From the NCBI GenBank assembly GCA_963681505.1, contig OY811983.1, positions 6,259,001-6,323,000 on the forward strand: DNA of 64,000 nt. The letters run 5' to 3'. A program made the position numbers and the translations under genes. The stretch is from Eunapius fragilis. Its lineage: Eukaryota > Porifera > Demospongiae > Spongillida > Spongillidae. The notes beneath the pieces are model-generated. The model was not told the origin of the DNA, made no database searches, and saw only the letters and a list, made by a program, of their open reading frames with translations. Below are positions 27,346-63,800 of the stretch, piece after piece; the first letter of the stretch is position 1, and each line of letters starts with the position of its first letter.

Positions 27346-27965
27346 CATAAAGCTTCACCATCGCGCGTTTGCTCCATCAGACATTTTCCAAATAGCGATG
27401 CGAATAACAACCCCGAAACTACACTCGGGAAAAGCTTATCCTCGCCCCCTCGAGCCAAGAAGGCAAAAAACCGAGAGGCCTGGACTAAGATTTTCTATCG
27501 TCAACGTCAGTAACATCGGCACCATCGCTCATGTACGGAATTGAAAAACGAAAACTAGATCCAGAAAATCAACGTTGGTGAAGCTAAGGCTAAATCTCAT
27601 GACTAAACGTTACTGTTTAGGCTAACAACTTTAAGACACAGTAGTTATCTAGTAGACCAGCAGTCCGGACGTGACGTCACGTTCAATCACACGCAGCAGT
27701 CCATTGAAAAAAATATAACCCGGACCATTTTCCCAGAAAATTGTTTTGGACAGGGACCAAAAATTTATCGCTAACCATAATCCCAGCGACAGTGCACCTA
27801 AATAACGCGGCTCTTTGCACCGGGGGAAGCATGCGTGAATAAAATTATAGGCGACCATGAATGAGTATGATCGTTCATGTATCCAATTTACTACAAAGAC
27901 CAAACTAACAACACAGCAGTTCAGCCGTCAGCACTTCACTGATATCATCCAAAGCCATCGACAGA

Positions 27966-28829
27966 ATGAGCAATTTTAATGTTTCAATTTTATCGGATGT
28001 CATAATCACAGGAACCAACAGTGCGTCAGTACTCGTGTGTCTGCTGGCAGCCTTTCTGGTGTATCATCTCAGGTTGTACAGAACGGTGGTCTACCGATTG
28101 GCGCTCTACCAAGTGTTGGCTTCGTTGGCCTTTGCTACGGTCGAGGTCTTCCAAATCATTTTCGTTAACTACAGCAAAGCTCCGGAGGTCTACGATCGCG
28201 CGTGTATGGCTATTGGATGGTTGATCATGTACTCGCTATGGGTTAAAATTTTCTTCATGACGTGGGTAACCTTTCATCTCTTCTACTTCGCAGTACTACA
28301 GAAGAACCTAAAAAAATTTGAAGTGTTGTATGTTGCAACTTCGCTACTCATCCCAGCACTGATAGCATCGATACCGCTGACGACTCGCACTTACGGATTA
28401 AACAAGTATGGCTTTTGTTTTCTAAACGATACTGCCAGCGTTGCAACAATAGAGAGGTTTTCTCTTTGGTATGGTCCAGCATTGTTAATTCTTCTTGCAA
28501 TATCAATAGCCATGATTGTCATGGTGATAACTCTGGCTCGACGGGTGTATTCACGGTCCAAGTACGAACCTATCACGGAAGGGGATCAGTTTTGGACAGC
28601 TGTTAAGCAGCTCCTTCCACTGTCTGCTTTCCCAATATTATTCTTCATCTTTTTAATACCAGTTTTCATAGATGCCGTCATTGCACATATATATGCGGCC
28701 AACAAATCCCTGACTATTACAAATCTATTTATCGCTCTATGGAGTATGTCTTCCGGTGTAACATTATTAATACACATATCCGTTGTTCGGTGTTTCTCAG
28801 CGAAGAGAAAGAGAAAGCTTTACTCATGA
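27966..28829 (+). CDS. Seven-helix G-protein-coupled receptor-like protein, paralogue 1
   Basis: An intronless 287-residue protein with seven hydrophobic segments at about 19-37, 42-66, 80-108, 119-139, 165-190, 215-237 and 250-273. Cysteine 80 (start of helix 3) and cysteine 151 (second outer loop) could form the usual GPCR disulfide. The N-terminus is short with one N-glycosylation motif (NVS), the third inner loop holds RRVYSRSKYEPITEG, helix 6 begins with PLSAFPILFF, and the tail is short and basic (KRKRKL). The layout resembles cAMP-receptor-like or GPR157-like receptors rather than rhodopsin family members (no DRY or NPxxY). The ligand is unknown. About 55 bp of sequence before the ATG is shared with paralogue 2 (45702-46607). 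Confidence 0.85.
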   Translation: MSNFNVSILSDVIITGTNSASVLVCLLAAFLVYHLRLYRTVVYRLALYQVLASLAFATVEVFQIIFVNYSKAPEVYDRACMAIGWLIMYSLWVKIFFMTWVTFHLFYFAVLQKNLKKFEVLYVATSLLIPALIASIPLTTRTYGLNKYGFCFLNDTASVATIERFSLWYGPALLILLAISIAMIVMVITLARRVYSRSKYEPITEGDQFWTAVKQLLPLSAFPILFFIFLIPVFIDAVIAHIYAANKSLTITNLFIALWSMSSGVTLLIHISVVRCFSAKRKRKLYS

Positions 28830-45396: not shown

Positions 45397-45701
45397 AATA
45401 CTTTAAATTAACGATACTCAAAGCTTACGGGCACTTCGCGCCTATTTTGTGACCGACGCCCCTTTATTTCCAGCGGTTAATCGAACCCCCTTTCCAAAAT
45501 CCTACGCACGGGCCCGACTATAGTGTTCACGGCGACACCCAGCCATACCTTTATGATTATGTTCTAACTGACTAGTGAATTTTTATTAAATCCAAAATTC
45601 ATCTATATATTGCTATTATATATATATATAACTGTCGACACAGCAGTTCTGCCGTCAGTATTTATTTATTTTTTAGTGGTATCATCCAAGGCCAGGGACA
45701 G

Positions 45702-46607
45702 ATGAGCAATATCAGTTTTTCCTTTACCTCGGAAGTTATTGTAACCGGAACCAACAGTGTGTCTGTACTCGTGTGCCTGCTAGCAGCCTTTCTGGTGTAT
45801 CATCTCAGGTTGTACAGAACGGTGGTGTATCGACTGTCATTCTACCAGGTGTTGGCTTCGTTGGCCTCTGCCACGGTCGATGTCTTCCAGATCATTTTCA
45901 TTGACTACAGCAAAGCTCCGAAGGTCTACGATCACGTGTGTATCGCTATTGGATGGATGACCATGTACACACAATGGGTGAAAGTTCTCTTCACGACGTG
46001 GGTAACCGTTCATCTCTTCTATTTCGCAGTACTACAAAAGAACCTAAAAAAATTTGAAGTGTTGTATGTTGTAACTTCGCTACTCATCCCAGCCCTGATA
46101 GCAGCAATACCGCTGACGACTCGCACTTACGGATTAAACAAGTTAGGCTTTTGTTTTCTAAACGATACTGCCCGCGTTGCAATAATAGAGAGGTTTTCTC
46201 TTTGGTATGGTCCAGCATTGTTAATTCTTCTTGCACTGTCAATAGCCATGGTTGTCATGGTGATAACTCTGGCTCGTCGGGTGTATTCGCGGTCCAAGTA
46301 CGAACCTATCACGGAAGGGGATCAGTTTTGGACAGCTGTTAAGCAGCTCCTTCCACTGTCTGCTTTCCCAATATTATTCTTCATCTTTTTAATACCAGTT
46401 TTCATAGATGCCGTCCGTCTATCTGAAAGTTCCGTCGCTGCCAACAAATCCCTCTCAGTTACCCTTCTATTTATCTCTCTATGGAGTATGTCTTCCGGTG
46501 TGACCCTAATAATACACATATCCGTGGTTCGGTGTTTCTCGAAGAGAAAGAGAAAGCTTAATTCAAATAATATTCAACCTCCGCTTCAATATTCTGAGTT
46601 GAAATGA
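45702..46607 (+). CDS. Seven-helix G-protein-coupled receptor-like protein, paralogue 2
   Basis: An intronless 301-residue paralogue of the receptor at 27966-28829. It is nearly identical from helix 4 through helix 6 (for example KNLKKFEVLYV, RTYGLNK, YSRSKYEPITEGDQFW) and more divergent in the N-terminus, helix 3 and the third outer loop (VRLSESSVAANKSLSVT). The tail is longer (SNNIQPPLQYSELK) and may be a cytoplasmic signal. The sequence before the ATG (CACAGCAGTTCTGCCGTCAG, then ATCATCCAAGGCCA) is shared with paralogue 1, so the duplication included the promoter. Ligand unknown. Confidence 0.85.
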   Translation: MSNISFSFTSEVIVTGTNSVSVLVCLLAAFLVYHLRLYRTVVYRLSFYQVLASLASATVDVFQIIFIDYSKAPKVYDHVCIAIGWMTMYTQWVKVLFTTWVTVHLFYFAVLQKNLKKFEVLYVVTSLLIPALIAAIPLTTRTYGLNKLGFCFLNDTARVAIIERFSLWYGPALLILLALSIAMVVMVITLARRVYSRSKYEPITEGDQFWTAVKQLLPLSAFPILFFIFLIPVFIDAVRLSESSVAANKSLSVTLLFISLWSMSSGVTLIIHISVVRCFSKRKRKLNSNNIQPPLQYSELK

Positions 46608-48325: not shown

Positions 48326-48623
48326 ACCCATTCAATCCTATGCCAATTTCTCCATGTCAAAATGCTACAGAAAACATAACTCATGCCAGCTGCATGCCAG
48401 TGTCACAAAATAATCGGCACCCCCTTAATTTGGTACCCCCGAATTTGTTCCTCATCTTCATGATACCAGTACTATTCATCCAGAGCAACAAATTAGCGTA
48501 ATGTGGGGGGGAGGTGGGAGGGGGGGAGGAGGCATAAATTGCATGCGTAGGTCTTATTAACACTTCTTGTCATACGTGTGGTACGTGTGCATACAGCCAT
48601 TACTGAAAACTTTTATCAAGCAG

Positions 48624-49184
48624 ATGAGTAACCTTTCCATTACTTTGATACTGTCCATCAACTGCAGCACCAACGGTGTGTCCGTACTCGTGTGCCTGCT
48701 GGCTGCCTTTCTGGTGTATCGCCTCGGATTGTACAGAACGATGGTGTATCGGCTGTCACTCTACCAGGTGTTGGCTTCGTTGGCCTTTGCTACGGCCGAG
48801 ACCTTAGAAATCATTTTTGTCAACTACCAAAGAAATCCACAGGTGTACGAACGGGCGTGTATCGCTATTGGATGGATGATCATGTACACTCGATGGGTGA
48901 AAGTTCTCTTCACGACGTGTGTAACATTTCATCTCTTCTACTTCGCAGTACTACACAAGAACCTAAAAAGATTTGAAATATTGTACGTTGTGACTTCATT
49001 ACTCATCCCAGCCCTGATAGCAGCGATACCGCTGATGACTAGCACTTACGGAGTTAACCGACTGGGCATGTGCTTCCTTTATACTGCTGCTGTAAACGAC
49101 ACCAGCAATATCGCAAAAATAGAATTGTTTTCTCTCTGGTACGGTCCCGCCATAGTTATTCTTTTCTTACTATCCTTTAACTAG
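48624..49184 (+). pseudogene. Truncated third GPCR paralogue (stops in helix 5)
   Basis: The frame from Met at 48624 (an in-frame ATG at 48567 precedes it) matches paralogues 1 and 2 through helices 1 to 4, with LVCLLAAFLVYRLGLYRTMV and IPALIAAIPL. It ends after FSLWYGPAIVILFLLSFN with a stop. Beyond 49185 no similarity to the remaining helices is visible on any frame. So it is a 3'-deleted pseudogene, or a five-helix protein. A second outer loop insertion (YTAAVNDTSN) distinguishes it. Confidence 0.75.
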
Positions 49185-53173: not shown

Positions 53174-56100
53174 ATGACCAGCCAGAAGCCACTGCACATG
53201 GCCAATATCATGGCTGAAGTGGACGTCATGACTGACTCTATACAGAAAATGCCTTCAAACCAGTGAGCGGGATCTGCCCTTAGCATGTTTAATTAGTGTG
53301 TGTATACGTATACATCTGTGCATCATGACACAGCTCAGTCCTGCATGTATGTGTGCAAAGTTTATGAATGCATTTCATGTGTTAGGGGTCAGTTTTTATG
53401 CATGCTTTGCCTTCCCTATGGCACCCAAATGAGTGTGTGCCTTCATTTTCTGTACTCAGGTTATGCTCGTTTGGTGAGTCGATATTTCAGAAAGCTAAAG
53501 ATGCTCAGCTATCAGGAGATGAGGAGCAGTCGTATATTCTTTTCACGACGTACCTTAATGTGGTGGAAGCAGTTATGAAGTCTGAAGAGTACATGTATGC
53601 AGATGGTAACAAGGTAATCTTGGCTCAATTTGCTTTTTATAATTTTTACATAGCAGTTTCATACAAGAGATTGCTGCCACGAAAAAGACTCTATCACATG
53701 TTTTTTCAAGTTTCCAAACTATTTCATTAAATAAAAAAAATAGATACCTACGGTGTACGTAAGTCCTCTACAACTTGTTTTCTTATAAGCACTGGAAATC
53801 AGTTTTTCCATCATGGAGTTACATTTTTTTCAAATTGCACATATCAGTGTTTCTTGACGCAGCAGTGATCTCACAGTAATTTTTTTAATGACCCCTCGTT
53901 TATATATGCATACAAGGTTATTAAAATGCTCTCAGGTTATTAAAATGCTCTGCATTGGAATTAATGTAACTTCCGAACCATTAGCGCTTTAGACCTCATA
54001 TTTTTGCTCCATACTTCATTTCCCTATGAAACGTACAAAGGGCATCTCTCTTTGGGGTTAAACGATCATATGTCTTTCTGCAGGAGTGTTCGAATCAAAT
54101 TCAATAGTGATAGGACCACTCCATGTACCCTCCCAATTTGAAGCGATTTGAACACTCCTACCTGAAGATGTGGTGTTTTGAACCCTATGGGGTATCGGAC
54201 ATTGCAACATCATTACTCCACGTAACTAAGACACCAAAATGTATTTTCACATATACTAATGGTGTGGCATGCTGCGTTAAAAATAGCAACCCGATGGCAT
54301 CAATATTTTGGAAGATATATCAATTTGATTTGGATGCTGATGCTATATATATATATTTATGGGGTCGAGACAGCGAAAAGGGACTTAGTGCATATTATAA
54401 AAATTTCCAGGAAGGAACTTCAAAGTTGACGCATGCAATTAAAATGTACGCGTAATTTAAAATGAGGTCCACTGTAACTCCATGATCAGGACATGCTAAT
54501 TTCCAGTGCGTAAGAAAGAAGTTGTGAGGACATTGGTGTCTCTTAGAAAATTTTTAAAAATTGAAAACTTGAAAAAATATGCACTAGGTCCCTTTTCGCT
54601 GCCTCGATCCTATATATATATATAAATCCACGAGGGTGAAAATCTCCTAGAATGTTCCATATATATAAATGAGGGTGAACTGTCCCTTATATGCAGCCCT
54701 GTCGTGCATGCATATTAGTACATTCATCTATTCAAACCTGGTATGCGTTATTTCTATATCAAGGAATTTGACCAACTTCTAAATGAACTGCGATTAAGGG
54801 AGGTGAAGAAAGAAAGCGAGAAGCTGTTTATTAGCCTGGCAAACAGGTTAGTGCATTTTCTGGTTTTACAGTGCTGTTGCATGATGTGTTTTACAGTGCT
54901 GTTGCATGATGTGTTTTACAGTGCTGTTGCATGATGTGTTTTACAGTGCTGTTGCATGATGTGTTTTACAGTGCTGTTGCATGATGTGTTTTACAGTGCT
55001 GTTGCATGATGTGTTTTACAGTGCTGTTGCATGATGTGTTTTACAGTGCTGTTGCATGATGTGTTTTACAGTGCTGTTGCATGATGTGTTTTACAGTGCT
55101 GTTGCATGATGTGTTTTACAGTGCTGTTGCATGATGTGTTTTACAGTGCTGTTGCATGATGTGTTTTACAGTGCTGTTGCATGATGTGTTTTACAGTGCT
55201 GTTGCATGATGTGTTTTACAGTGCTGTTGCATGATGTGTTTTACAGTGCTGTTGCATGATGTGTTTTACAGTGCTGTTGCATGATGTGTCTTGTGCAACA
55301 ACACTTGTGCATTCTCATTTTCTGTAAAGACCTGCTGTTATTTTATTTATTTTTTCAGAGAAGAAAGAGGGTTGGCAGTTGGTATGGAAGACACAGGGGG
55401 TTAGTGACAATCTTTTAGTTCCATTGCATCCTTAAACTGATCTCTTTACCTCCACATCATCACTTCTCCCTGTACCACCACATCATCACTTCTCCCTGTA
55501 CCTCCACATCATCACTTCTCCCTGTACCTCCACATCATCACTTCTCCCTGTACCTCCACATCATCACTTCTCCCTGTACCTCCACATCATCACTTCTCCC
55601 TGTACCTCCACATCATCACTTCTCCCTGTACCTCCACATCATCACTTCTCCCTGTACATCCACATCATCACTTCTCCCTGTACCTCCACATCATCACTTC
55701 TCCCTGTACATCCACATCATCACTTCTCCCTGTACCTCCACATCATCACTTCTCCCTGTACCTCCACATCATCACTTCTCCCTGTACATCCACATCATCA
55801 CTTCTCCCTGTACCTCCACATCATCACTTCTCCCTGTACCTCCACATCATCACTTCTCCCTGTACATCCACATCATCACTTCTCCCTGTACCTCCACATC
55901 ATCACTTCTCCCTGTACCTCCACATCATCACTTCTCCCTGTACCTCCACATCATCACTTCTCCCTGTACCTCCACATCATCACTTCTCCCTGTACCTCCA
56001 CATCATCACTTCTCCCTGTACCTCCACATCATCACTTCTCCCTGTACATCCACATCATCACTTCTCCCTGTACCTCCACATCATCACTTCTTCCTGTACC

Positions 56101-59100
56101 ACCACATCATCACTTCTCCCTGTACATCCACATCATCACTTCTCCCTGTACCTCCACATCATCACTTCTCCCTGTACCTCCACATCATCACTTCTCCCTG
56201 TACATCCACATCATCACTTCTCCCTGTACCTCCACATCATCACTTCTCCCTGTACCTCCACATCATCACTTCTCCCTGTACATCCACATCATCACTTCTC
56301 CCTGTACCTCCACATCATCACTTCTCCCTGTACCTCCACATCATCACTTCTCCCTGTACCTCCACATCATCACTTCTCCCTGTACCTCCACATCATCACT
56401 TCTACCTGTACCTCCACATCATCACTTCTCCCTGTACCTCCACATCATCACTTCTTCCTGTACCTCCACATCATCACTTCTCACTGTACCTCCACATCAT
56501 CACTTCTCCCTGTACTTCCACATCATCACTTCTCCCTGTACCTCCACATCATCACTTCTCACTGTACCTCCACATCATCACTTCTCCCTGTACATCCTTT
56601 CCTTCACTCAGTTCAAGTACTGTCTCATCTTCACACTTGTTTCTTTACCATTCACAGTTATTTGCACTCCATGTTACTAACTGGCTTATTCTCCTTTCCA
56701 CTCAGATGGAACCAGGCATGTGAGAACTGAACTTTACTTTCCTAATGAACATTTGAAGCAGGTAATACTTTTGATTTTATTGAAACACGTAATGTGTTAG
56801 TGGATCTATCCTCTGATCACTTCACCGTTACCCTTTGACCTCCACATAACCTCTACCCACTGACCTCTACCTCCACCCTGACCTCTACCTCCACCGACCT
56901 CCACCGACCTCTACCCTACACTAACCTCCACCTCTACATAACCTCTACTCCTGACCTCTACCTACACCCCTGACCTCCACCCTTGAACTCTACCCGACCT
57001 CTATCTACACCCTGACCTCTACATAATCTCCATCCCTGACCTCTACATAACCTCCACCCCTGACCTCTATATAACCTCCACCCCTGACCTCTACATGACC
57101 TCTACCCCTGACCTCTACCTACACTGACACAGCAGTTTAGCAGTCCACATATGTAAGAAACCCCATGCACTTGTCTCATTGTTTGGATGGTTATTCACAC
57201 ATAGACAAGCGGGATTTGCACGCTTATAGTTGTAAGTAGATCTGGACTGCTGAATTCTACTGTGTGATTTCTACCTCTGTAACCCTACCTTCTGTGCTCT
57301 CTGGTGTTTGTAGGCTCCTATGAAATTAATTTATGCTTTCTTGTTGTGTTTGGCTTCTAGAATAACACTGCCACCATCAAGCATCCTGAATTCCTTCCTC
57401 CAAACCTTTCCGTGAAGGTTGGAGATATCCTACAATGTAGGGAAGAATATCTGGTCCATCAGTGTCACTGTTGTGACGTGGCTCCTGTTGGTGGTCTTGC
57501 AGAAAAGATATTTCTCAAATACCCTACCAGCAATACTTACCACACCAGGTACATTCAGTCACAGAGAGGCATTCCCTTGGCCCCAATTGAGCCTGGCACT
57601 GTAGGTATATATGAGGTTGCCACTGCCTCTCGTCCGTCAGCGGCTCAGTTGATGTATGTCATCAACATGTATGCTCAAAACGATCCTGGACCACCATGTG
57701 ATCAGCCTTTCTCAAAAGACTCGTCATCTTGTCGTTTGGAACTGTTCAACAAATGTTTGAATACACTTTCAAGTATGGATCTTAAATCTTCATTCAAACA
57801 ACATAATCCAAGTCTTGCATTTCCATGGAGAATTGGTTGTGGTATTGCTAAGGGAGATTGGAAATTGTATTTCGATTCCATTGTAAAGTTTTGCACCCAA
57901 TCTCCCAATTATGATGTAGTGATCTACCAAATGGCAGCAGAAGGACAGCCCATTGAAGGCATACCTTTACCACAGGGACATCTGATTATGACTGCTCCAC
58001 ATGCACCACTTCCTTCCTCTCTCTACCCTGCATCGCAGCAAAATATGTCTCAAGATACAGTGTGCCAAAATTCAAGCAATTCTGCACCCGCTCTTCCACC
58101 AAAGGCAATTATTCCAACCCAGATGTGGACCGGCATGACAAGTGAGCAACAACTTCCACAACCAAAGGTTGTTGCATGCATGAACGAAGACCAAGTTCAA
58201 GAAGCTGTAGAGAAGGAACGCTCTTACTGGAAATTTATTGTTAGAAAACTGGAGAATGATCACCGAGAGCAGATGGTTGTACTCCAAAGAAAATTTAAGG
58301 ATGAGCTTCAAAAAATCCAGAATATTTCTGAGCAACAGGTTGTTGAAATCAAACAAATGCTCATGTCTGTGTCTAGTGAGCTGTCAAATGAACAAGAGCA
58401 ACGACAGAAAGCAATGGAAGCAAAAGTGCTCGCTCAGCAGAAACTTGCAGAAGGGATAAAGAAACTTGAGGAAGAACGGAGACAATACCAAAACCAAATC
58501 CAGAAAAGTAGCTGTGTTCCAGAGTATTGGTCAACTGATTTTGCATTTATATCTCATAATCGTCATGTTCTGCTTGACCATGATAGTGAAGAATACAGAG
58601 TTGTGGCCAGTTTAATGTGTAACTTTCGAGAAATAGGAAGGACAAAAAAAGAGAAAGATGATGGCTTTTTTGATATTTCCACAAAATATCTGTTTGATGT
58701 CACTCAGATTGAGAGGGTAGAAAACCGTGAGTTATGGGATGCTTACTGTTATGAGCGCCAAAAATTGGTCAACTGCTATAGGAAGTTTGATGCAAAAGAA
58801 CACGGGGCAGCCACGTCACATCTTACTGATCCTGAATCTCGTGCTCGCTTCTTGCATCGCCACGAGTCTCTAGCCAATTGTGAATTATGTAATCATTTGA
58901 CACACTACCCAATGTTGACACCTTGCCATGATGGCGATCCTGAAAATCCTGTCAATGAATACTGGCTTTTTCATGGTACTGACTCGAACACAATTGACAA
59001 ATATCTCACAGTGGCTCCTGGGTATGACCCTAGAATGGGAGGAGGGTTATTTGGCCATGGATTCTACTTAGCTGAGGATCCTAGAAAGTCATTTCTCTAT

Positions 59101-59634
59101 ACCAAATGTGGGGTTTGTAAAAGTCAGAATAAACCTTGCTTGTGCTTTCAAGCTCGCGCAGGAACTTTACGCCGAACCACCTTTAACGCAGCTGGTGTTA
59201 CTTTACCCCGAACCACCTCTAATGCAGCTGGTGTTACTTTACGCCGAACCTCCTCTAACGCAGCTGATGTTACCGAAGAGACTCCCACAAGGATGCTAGT
59301 CTATCGTGCCATGTTGGGTAATGCCCAGGTCGTTATAGACAACTCAAAAGCAGATGAAATGGGCAAACTGATGAAACCCAAGCAAGATGTCCGTCTTGAT
59401 ATCCCCTATGATTCTATTCTTGTGGAGTGTATGTCTAATGTTCAGGAAGCTAGCATGCTTTTCCGTGAAATAATCCTGTACGAAAAGTTCAAAGCATACC
59501 CGGAATATATCGTCACCTTCCAGCGCCGACTTAATGACGGGGGGCCTCGACGTAATACCATTACCTTGATGCTGGACAAGGCCAAGGCATTTATAACCCG
59601 CCGGAACAGGATTTTGAATGCGGAATCTAAATAG
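53174..59634 (+). CDS. USP8-dimerisation/macrodomain/coiled-coil/PARP fusion protein
   Basis: Six exons join in phase: 53174-53262, 53460-53613, 54764-54846, 55359-55399, 56706-56761, 57361-59634, giving 898 residues. Residues 1-110 resemble the helical USP8/AMSH dimerisation domain (SIFQKAKDAQLSGDEEQSYI, then LFTTYLNVVEAV). Residues 161-335 look like a macrodomain: VGDILQ, LVHQCHC, GGLAEKIFLKYP, VINMYAQ, WRIGCGIAKGDW, a fold that binds or hydrolyses ADP-ribose. Residues 415-525 are a charged coiled coil. Residues 530-865 are a PARP catalytic domain: LWDAY, WLFHGTDSNTIDKYL with H679, GHGFYLAEDPRKS with Y710, and REIILYEKFKAYPEYIVTF with E844, so the H-Y-E triad is complete. A basic tail follows. 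Inside the PARP domain lie a CGVCKSQNKPCLC cluster and three 12-residue repeats. Macrodomain and PARP together recall PARP9/14/15; the N-terminus does not. Probable role: ADP-ribosylation signalling. Confidence 0.88.
54083..54610. mobile_element. Two inverted-repeat elements in intron 2 of the PARP fusion gene
   Basis: 54083-54157: GGAGTGTTCGAATCAAATT and inverse. 54362-54610: GGGTCGAGACAGCGAAAAGG and inverse, about 45-bp arms. Probably MITE remnants. TA repeats adjoin the second. Confidence 0.65.
54857..55290. repeat. 25-bp minisatellite, intron 3 of the PARP fusion gene
   Basis: About 17 almost identical copies of GTGCTGTTGCATGATGTG plus TTTTACA beginning about 10 bp after the exon 3 donor. 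Each copy contains TTTTACAG, an acceptor-like motif. Confidence 0.97.
55440..56597. repeat. 26-bp minisatellite, intron 4 of the PARP fusion gene
   Basis: About 44 copies of TCCCTGTACCTCCACATCAT plus CACTTC. Variants (ACATCC for ACCTCC, CACTG for CCCTG) recur in a partly regular order, a higher-order structure. No fixed spacers, so not a CRISPR. Confidence 0.97.
56830..57125. repeat. ACCTCTACCCCTGACCTCCA-type minisatellite, intron 5
   Basis: Irregular units of 12 to 24 bp made of GACCTCTAC, ATAACCTCC and ACCCCT. It is followed (57125-57270) by a weak inverted repeat (TTTAGCAGTCCA / TGGACTGCTGAA). Confidence 0.85.
59163..59270. repeat. In-frame 36-bp tandem repeat in the PARP catalytic domain
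   Basis: Three copies encode TLRRTTFNAAGV, TLPRTTSNAAGV and TLRRTSSNAADV. Copies differ by few bases, so the expansion is recent and keeps the frame. Confidence 0.95.
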
Positions 59635-60847: not shown

Positions 60848-63800
60848 ATGGAGAGCGTCGAGTTCACTATTGACAATGTGAAGGTGGAGTTCCCGTTCAA
60901 ACCTTACCCTTGCCAATTCGTGTACATGGAAAAAGTCATACAGTGCTTGCAACAGGTAAAATAACTATAAGCCATAGGTTCATGGATGACAGCATTCCAG
61001 CATGCAGATATCGAATGGCACCTGGCCGATTAAATAATTTACCCGCGTTCTCCACTCAGTGCATGCCTCCTCGTGTCCTTTCTCGCGCAGGGTACCAACG
61101 CTATCCTTGAGTCTCCTACGGGCACGGGAAAAACTTTGTGTTTACTCTGCGCAACGTTGGCATGGCGAGAGGAGCAGCTGCGACGTGGGAGCGGGACTGT
61201 GGAAGGAAACGTGTGGGACACGAGAATACCCTTGAACTCAGGTGAATGTGTGCGTGTGTGTGTGTGTGTGCATGTATGTATGTGTGAGTGTGTGTGCATA
61301 TAAATGTGTGTGTGTGCATATGTGTGTGGGTGGGTGTGGACATGCATATTTATCATTATCTAGGTGTTGGTGAAGGCATTCCAAAGATTATCTATGCATC
61401 CAGGACTCACTCACAGCTCTCACAAGTCATTCGCGAGCTCAAAAACACCAGCTACAGGTTTGTATTTCCTCCCCCCCCCCCCCCCCCACCCCTCCATTCC
61501 CTCCCCAAAATCCAAACACCAATGCCAAGACACTTATGTCTGCACAAGTGCAATCACAAGACCATCTTTAAGTTATAAGTTGGATATTAATTTTCTTACA
61601 TATCAAAGCCAACTGATCCTGATTCCCTGTACAGCTGGAACAGACATATACCTGCACATAGTGGTTTCTGTCATGCTTTTTTATTCAGACCAATCATTTC
61701 TTGTTCTTCCTTACACTGCAAGAAAAGTATGGTTATCCAAAGTTATCTTGGCTTGAGAAACTTGGGATAAACTCACAAAAGTTACCCTAAATCCAGTATA
61801 ACTCTGCACAACTACCACAAAATTACATTCATAGATCAGATAACTGTAGTTGTGCAGAGTTATACTGGATTTAGGGTAACTTTTGTGAGTTTATCCCAAG
61901 TTTCTCAAGCCTAGATAACTTAGGATAACCATACTTTTCTAGCAGTGTTAGGCCTGGGGTTACATCATGGCTTGTTCTTCCGTAGGTCTGGGGTTTCCGT
62001 CATGGCTTGTTCCCACATAAACTCAGGGCGGCTTCCATCATGGCTTGCTCTTCCATAGGCCTGGGGTTTACATCATAGCTTGTTCCCCCCATAAACTCAG
62101 GGTTTCCATCATGGCTTGCCCAGTTTCCATCATAGCTTGTTCTCCCATATAGATAGAATTTCCATCATGGCTTGTTACCCCTTAGGCCTAGAGTTTCCAT
62201 CATTGGGTCAAGGGAACAGATGTGCATCCACCCTGAGGTGCAGAGAAAGGAGACCAACACAGAGAAGGTGTGGTCGACTGGTCTGATTGGTGGAACCTTA
62301 TACCTCTGTGGGTGTCTTAGGTTCACCTCTGCAGGGCCAAGGTGAAGGCAAACTCCTGCACCTACTACAACCACTTAGATGGTTAGGTTTGCCGCTCTCC
62401 TTGCCGTACTGGTTCCTCCCTCCCTTCTCTGTTACCTTTCTGCTTTTCTGTATCTCATTTCCACTCTGTTTAACAATGTTTTCTCTTTACCACCACTCCT
62501 CCATCTTTACCACCACTCCTCCATCTTTACCACCACTCCTCCATCTTTACCACCACTCCTCCATCTTTACCACCACTCCTCCATCTTTACCACCACTCCT
62601 CCATCTTTACCACCACTCCTCCATCTTTACCACCACTCCTCCATCTTTACCACCACTCCCCCATCTTTACCACCACTCCTCCATCTTTACCACCACTCCT
62701 CCATCTTTACCACCACTCCTCCATCTTTACCACCACTCCTCCATCTTTACCACCACTCCTCCATCTTTACCACCACTCCCTCATCTTTACCACCACTCCT
62801 CCATCTTTACCACCACTCCTCCATCTTTACCACCACTCCTCCATCTTTACCACCACTCCTCCATCTTTACCACCACTCCTCCATCTTTACCACCACTCCT
62901 CCATCTTTACCACCACTCCTCCATCTTTACCACCACTCCTCCATCTTTACCACCACTCCTCCATCTTTACCACCACTCCCCCATCTTTACCACCACTCCT
63001 CCATCTTTACCACCACTCCTCCATCTTTACCACCACTCCTCCATCTTTACCACCACTCCTCCATCTTTACCACCACTCCTCCATCTTTACCACCACTCCT
63101 CCATCTTTACCACCACTCCTCCATCTTTACCACCACTCCTCCATCTTTACCACCACTCCTCCATCTTTACCACCACTCCTCCATCTTTACCACCACTCCT
63201 CCATCTTTACCACCACTCCTCCATCTTTACCACCACTCCTCCATCTTTACCACCACTCCTCCATCTTTACCACCACTCCTCCATCTTTACCACCACTCCT
63301 CCATCTTTACCACCACTCCCCCATCTTTACCACCACTCCTCCATCTTTACCACCACTCCTCCATCTTTACCACCACTCCCCCATCTTTACCACCACTCCC
63401 CCATCTTTACCACCACTCCTCCATCTTTACCACCACTCCTCCATCTTTACCACCACTCCTCCATCTTTACCACCACTCCTCCATCTTTACCACCACTCCT
63501 CCATCTTTACCACCACTCCTCCATCTTTACCACCACTCCTCCATCTTTACCACCACTCCTCCATCTTTACCACCACTCCTCCATCTTTACCACCACTCCT
63601 CCATCTTTACCACCACTCCTCCATCTTTACCACCACTCCTCCATCTTTACCACCACTCCTCCATCTTTACCACCACTCCTCCATCTTTACCACCACTCCT
63701 CCATCTTTCTCCTCAATCACATCCCCCTTGCCATCCTTCATCCTTCCTCTGTCACTCCTCCCTCCTCCCCACACCTCTGCCACTCCTCTTCCTTCATCCC

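Follow-up and report, generated by a model that had tools for sequence, protein, structure and literature searches.

A predicted Eunapius fragilis protein that joins a USP8-type MIT domain, an ALC1-like macrodomain and a PARP catalytic domain

A six-exon gene in a 64,000-nucleotide stretch of the genome of the freshwater sponge Eunapius fragilis (contig OY811983.1, here C13:6259001-6323000; this whole stretch is hereafter the window) is predicted to encode one protein of 898 amino acids (aa) that carries, in order, an N-terminal USP8_dimer/MIT domain, a macrodomain nearest to the ALC1/TARG1-like class, and a PARP catalytic domain with an intact H-Y-E triad. Each part is known, and the combination appears to be without described precedent among the literature matches listed. 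The gene lies at window positions 53174-59634 on the plus strand, as do all of its features given below; every exon junction is GT/AG, and the exons join without a stop codon. An earlier sequence-only reading had proposed this gene, and we rebuilt its model exactly from the six exons, with H679, Y710, and E844 in the places it had given; its domain order and its intact triad also stand. The assembly comprises 218.9 Mb in 24 contigs.

Results

The N-terminus belongs to the USP8_dimer family. In the whole protein, the Pfam profile (PF08969) matched residues 4-109 with an E value of 1.2e-14 (54.8 bits); searched alone, the N-terminus gave an E value of 2e-16 (60.6 bits), against a cut-off of 24.6 bits. 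The PDB matches of this region were structures of the USP8 N-terminal domain (8y9a, E 7.7e-5; 2a9u, E 8e-5), and 2A9U is listed as the USP8 MIT structure in a survey of human MIT domains, which also describes binding of the USP8 and AMSH MIT domains to subunits of endosomal sorting complex required for transport III (ESCRT-III) (PMC9477494). The homology claimed by the sequence-only reading was thus borne out, but its label of a dimerization domain was not, given that the domain is the MIT domain of USP8. By this homology, the N-terminus may be an ESCRT-III docking domain. Contacts reported for a USP8 model involve E103, K74, and N71 (PMC12057046), which in the HMMER alignment correspond to E100, M69, and E66 of the sponge protein, so that one is kept and two are changed. 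The domain is encoded by exon 1 (53174-53262, aa 1-30), exon 2 (53460-53613, aa 30-81), and exon 3 (54764-54846, aa 82-109, with the final MIT helix and E100). Given that the homology spans the exon 1/2 and 2/3 junctions, it supports both of them, and exon 2 was separately recovered by the genome search (E 1.6e-7). The sole other USP8_dimer match in the genome, on contig C10, looks AMSH-like by eye and aligns to profile positions 66-114 within a single frame; the fusion gene has an intron after profile position 77, within the span that is uninterrupted in the C10 match. USP8 itself was not found in this genome search.

Exon 6 (57361-59634; 757 codons and a stop) encodes the macrodomain, a helical region, and the PARP domain, and no other frame in the window that passes an entropy filter is longer. 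The frame begins right after a TAG and has no methionine before exon residue 98, which lies within the macrodomain and past its initial strands and binding loop; upstream coding sequence is therefore required. The 2.5 kb between exons 3 and 6 consist mostly of two minisatellites, one with 17 copies of a 25-bp unit and one with 44 copies of a 26-bp unit, the latter making up most of intron 4, and among the best 30 frames listed, none of at least 100 aa that passed the entropy filter falls there. Across this distance, exon 4 (55359-55399, 41 nt) and exon 5 (56706-56761, 56 nt) were predicted as linker exons from splice signals and reading frame alone. Under simple splice criteria, one single-exon bridge and six two-exon bridges keep the frame, the one given here included. 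The 25-bp minisatellite (54863-55289, 17.1 copies, 100% match) begins 16 bases past exon 3, and each of its units contains TTTTACAG, which resembles a splice acceptor.

The macrodomain (57406-57933, aa 157-332) gave no match in the Pfam scan of the sequence, although AlphaFold2 predicted its fold with a mean predicted local distance difference test (pLDDT) score of 87.9, in agreement with the sequence-only reading. It matched phrog_335 of PHROG, annotated as "phosphatase," with an E value of 5e-10, and in tblastn it matched 426 phage records, 375 of them at 80% coverage or more. By fold and sequence profile, the domain is a member of the ALC1-like group, nearest to the ALC1/TARG1-like class; the Foldseek ranking does not separate the classes, given that Poa1p comes first, an alphavirus macrodomain takes fourth place, and PARP14 occupies ranks 47-49, so the class assignment rests mainly on the fold and profile comparisons beyond that ranking.

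Two active-site positions bear on whether this domain reads or erases ADP-ribose. Gln247 (57676-57678) stands at the place of SCO6735 Gln85 and is Gln in all 49 chosen relatives, while His177 (57466-57468) stands at the place of SCO6735 Asn27, where all 49 have Asn; the relatives were fetched with two scan patterns, one of which spans the His177 position yet permitted both Asn and His. In SCO6735, the Q85A mutant had no activity left on DNA or protein, the N27S mutant lost nearly all DNA activity at a position that is Asn in almost all active macrodomains, and most of the mutants still showed roughly half of their protein-substrate activity; the same study equates Gln85 with TARG1 Lys84 (PMC9411070). 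The sponge domain has neither hydrolase pair complete: the lysine of TARG1 is absent, its place being that of Gln247, and of the SCO6735 pair Gln is kept and Asn is changed to His. The TARG1 Asp125 position presumably corresponds to Ala304. Given the replaced Asn beside the kept Gln, the macrodomain is more likely a reader of ADP-ribose than an eraser, and its hydrolase activity has probably been lost. Between the two functions offered by the sequence-only reading, binder or eraser, this favors the binder.

The PARP catalytic domain (58510-59529, about aa 525-864) matched PF00644 with 27.3 bits in the whole protein and 29.8 bits as a domain alone, against a cut-off of 26.7, which places it in the PARP superfamily. 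Its nearest PDB chains are tankyrases, the best being Tankyrase-2 (E 1.9e-6), and E844 falls under the glutamate of the tankyrase AEYVIY motif. The triad residues read from the gene model, H679 (58972-58974), Y710 (59065-59067), and E844 (59467-59469), occur in their usual contexts. The Pfam scan of the 898 aa found no PARP regulatory domain. About 50 residues are inserted ahead of the HGT motif, and a CxxCx6CxC loop (59107-59145) could be a metal site. The sequence-only reading had noted that polymer-forming PARPs have Glu as their third triad residue; the Glu is present, but by itself it does not prove that polymer is made. The H-Y-E triad also occurs in human PARP3, which is reported to be mono-specific. 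H-Y-E alone does not tell whether the product of the sponge domain would be a polymer. Within the domain lies an in-frame 36-bp minisatellite (59164-59273, 3.1 copies) that encodes a 12-aa repeat, the number of which may vary between individuals.

Between the macrodomain and the PARP domain, residues 416-522 (58183-58503) form a long region that is helical in a low-confidence model (exon 6 predicted without an alignment, pLDDT 36.4), 36% charged, and with one Pro or Gly in 107 residues. These features are consistent with the coiled coil that the sequence-only reading had named, but the heptad test was not significant, given that 210 of 500 shuffles scored equally well.

The genome contains at least 38 exon-level PF00644 matches, and in eight other open frames Pfam matches to Macro and PARP occur together. 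Of eight aligned full-length paralogues, judged by eye, three have Ile and five have Val where the fusion protein has E844, the aligner having put a gap there. No close paralogue was found in the genome for exon 6, for the macrodomain (next E 0.195), or for the PARP domain (next E 0.24), within searches that scored the best candidates only and an assembly with 60% BUSCO completeness (PMC12616128), both of which bound this negative result. A phmmer search against the frames of 28 fetched loci of the same genome gave as its best match (E 2.8e-5) a gene that looks PARP14-like by eye (L006). Two other PARP14-like genes, L003 (C21:1863773-1864306) and L004 (C21:1871478-1872011), lie 7.7 kb apart, and their 678-aa translations are apparently identical in the fetched stretch; the pair could stem from a very recent tandem copying event or from duplication in the assembly.

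In viral and prokaryote collections, relatives were found for the macrodomain. Five pattern stretches of the PARP domain yielded no relatives in viral contigs, and a search of 50,697 phage records found none at E values up to 1. The best-ranked matches in the viral scans with the macrodomain share 30-36% identity with it, some of them on contigs of 435-459 kb; in BFVD, the closest match to it comes from Marseillevirus LCMAC101 (E 1.5e-14), a Pithovirus protein matches it with 35% identity over 120 columns, and its fold matches there also include a toad endogenous retrovirus Gag. Capsid_NCLDV was detected in none of the 10 contigs with the nearest macrodomains and in none of 14 controls, which speaks neither for nor against a giant-virus identity of these contigs. 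We collected 119 loci with macrodomain relatives and their flanks (80 viral with up to 5 kb per side, 39 prokaryote with up to 3 kb), and a Pfam-confirmed PARP frame stood near the relative in eight of them, a raw count; all eight are on viral contigs. Four loci (L103, L105, L106, and L107) carry a WGR-PARP_reg-PARP gene on the same strand as the macrodomain gene and 0.6-2.9 kb upstream of it, and these four are mutually alike and count as one arrangement; the PARP gene is upstream of the macrodomain in L122 and L129 and downstream in L110 and L135. Relatives of the sponge macrodomain thus stand near PARPs in other genomes as well. In one further locus (L181, contig NYTS01000020.1, binned as a deltaproteobacterium), a macrodomain of the same subtype shares a frame with a reverse transcriptase and RNase H, probably a protist retroelement.

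Discussion

The sponge protein resembles several known systems in part. Like PARP14-like enzymes (Clade 3), including those of sponges, it has a macrodomain N-terminal to a PARP catalytic domain. It differs from them in having a single macrodomain, without a Pfam Macro match and nearest to the ALC1-like class, in the MIT domain at its N-terminus, and in keeping the triad Glu844, a residue that only one Clade 3 member retains and nearly all have replaced (Citarelli et al., PMC2964712). The partner domains described for Amphimedon queenslandica PARPs are WWE, RRM, and, once, Radial spoke3 (Perina et al., PMC4245714). Tankyrases share the H-Y-E triad and give the best PDB match, and they too have a Cys-rich loop, their zinc site, in a comparable position, but the Pfam scan of the sponge protein found neither ankyrin repeats nor SAM. 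The MIT deubiquitinases USP8 and AMSH share the N-terminal domain, whereas the sponge protein has no UCH, JAMM, or rhodanese domain by the same scan, and its enzyme is a PARP. Its macrodomain has the fold, the profile, and the SCO6735-type Gln of the ALC1-like macrodomains (TARG1, DarG, Poa1p, and BT1257/SCO6735) but differs from them in its His177 for the conserved Asn and in its fusion to a PARP. The four viral loci described above likewise place a PARP near a macrodomain of this subtype; there, however, the two are separate genes, the PARP is PARP1/2-like with WGR and regulatory domains, and no MIT domain was seen. The sequence-only reading knew of no protein with this N-terminus, a macrodomain, and a PARP, which agrees with our literature search: among the matches listed (titles and abstract beginnings of open-licence papers), none joined an MIT or USP8-type domain to a PARP or macrodomain. 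In the accessible text, the PARP surveys of Perina (2014) and Citarelli (2010) do not contain "USP8," and the human MIT survey (PMC9477494) does not contain "PARP."

We consider that the MIT-macrodomain-PARP protein has about an even chance of docking on ESCRT-III, writing ADP-ribose, and reading it via its macrodomain. The MIT domain would bring the protein to ESCRT-III tails, the C-terminal H-Y-E PARP would write ADP-ribose on nearby proteins or on itself, and the ALC1-like macrodomain, its hydrolase activity probably lost, would hold or recognize ADP-ribose and keep the protein on what was written. Copies of the protein may associate through the helical region that separates the macrodomain from the PARP domain, and the protein could have a role at endosomes or in immunity. 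Several observations weigh against this interpretation. Two of the three USP8 contact residues are changed (K74 and N71 to M69 and E66), which might alter or abolish binding; catalysis might survive with His177, given that most SCO6735 mutants still had roughly half of their activity on protein; and the helical region failed the heptad test. The PARP score is barely over the Pfam cut-off, the genome search did not list the domain among its 38 PF00644 matches, and the domain carries the insertion and the coding minisatellite. Exons 4 and 5 have no homology support, and their choice is not unique. The architecture was found in one sequence only across the sponge's own genome and the viral and prokaryote collections.

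The rival explanations turn largely on the same features. A writer and an eraser might share one chain, with the macrodomain still hydrolyzing ADP-ribose and resetting the marks of the PARP, as reported for PARP14, which has been described with both activities (PMC10499325). The kept Gln247 and the residual protein-substrate activity of most SCO6735 mutants (PMC9411070) favor this possibility, but we find it unlikely: the Asn important in SCO6735 is a His shared by none of the 49 relatives, and neither TARG1 catalytic residue is kept at Gln247 or, as we place Asp125, at Ala304. The self-dimerizing ADP-ribosylation switch proposed by the sequence-only reading, in which the N-terminus dimerizes and thereby activates the PARP, draws on the Pfam name and on an earlier proposal that the N-terminal USP8 domain dimerizes (PMC12057046). 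It is the weaker reading, and a decidedly unlikely one, given that the domain is an MIT domain, a kind for which binding to ESCRT-III tails has been measured (PMC9477494), and that full-length USP8 was reported to be monomeric in one study (PMC12057046).

It is also very unlikely that the locus holds two neighboring genes, with exons 1-3 forming an MIT gene or fragment and exon 6 a macrodomain-PARP gene with another first exon. The tiny, homology-free exons 4 and 5, their non-unique bridge, and the minisatellite that fills most of intron 4 speak for such a split; against it, exon 6 needs upstream coding sequence, the gap is mostly minisatellite with no sizeable frame listed, and frame-keeping bridges exist. 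We hold just as little expectation that the protein is an immune effector that acquired its macrodomain from a large DNA virus and senses or blocks viral ADP-ribosylation at ESCRT budding sites. The viral identities, the large contigs, and the Marseillevirus and Pithovirus matches are in line with such a capture, but the searches covered viral and prokaryote collections, so that a cellular source is possible, and the contigs lacked Capsid_NCLDV, as did the controls.

If docking on ESCRT-III with writing and reading is the correct interpretation, membrane remodeling by MIT and ESCRT-III would be tied to ADP-ribosylation in one protein, a connection for which the links among the literature matches listed are indirect; TSG101, of ESCRT-I, binds PARP1 independently of its ESCRT role (PMC9627669). 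The gene would also represent another animal route to a macrodomain plus PARP, with a different macrodomain class and the Glu that PARP14-like enzymes lost, and it allows asking whether cells use ADP-ribosylation to control the membrane-remodeling machinery. That sponges, and perhaps other animals, own a group of ESCRT-III-anchored ADP-ribosyltransferases, with a virus-type macrodomain turned reader and with ADP-ribosylation controlling membrane scission or viral budding, is a wider view that we regard as doubtful.

Other features of the window

A tRNA scan of the window found none, and an NCBIfam search gave no match. The next gene downstream (61034-61578, same strand) looks by eye like an RTEL1/FANCJ-type DNA helicase. 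Three plus-strand frames at 27909-28826, 45579-46604, and 48561-49181 are alike (VLVCLLAAFLVY) and, by eye, have the look of a tandem family of multi-pass membrane receptors.
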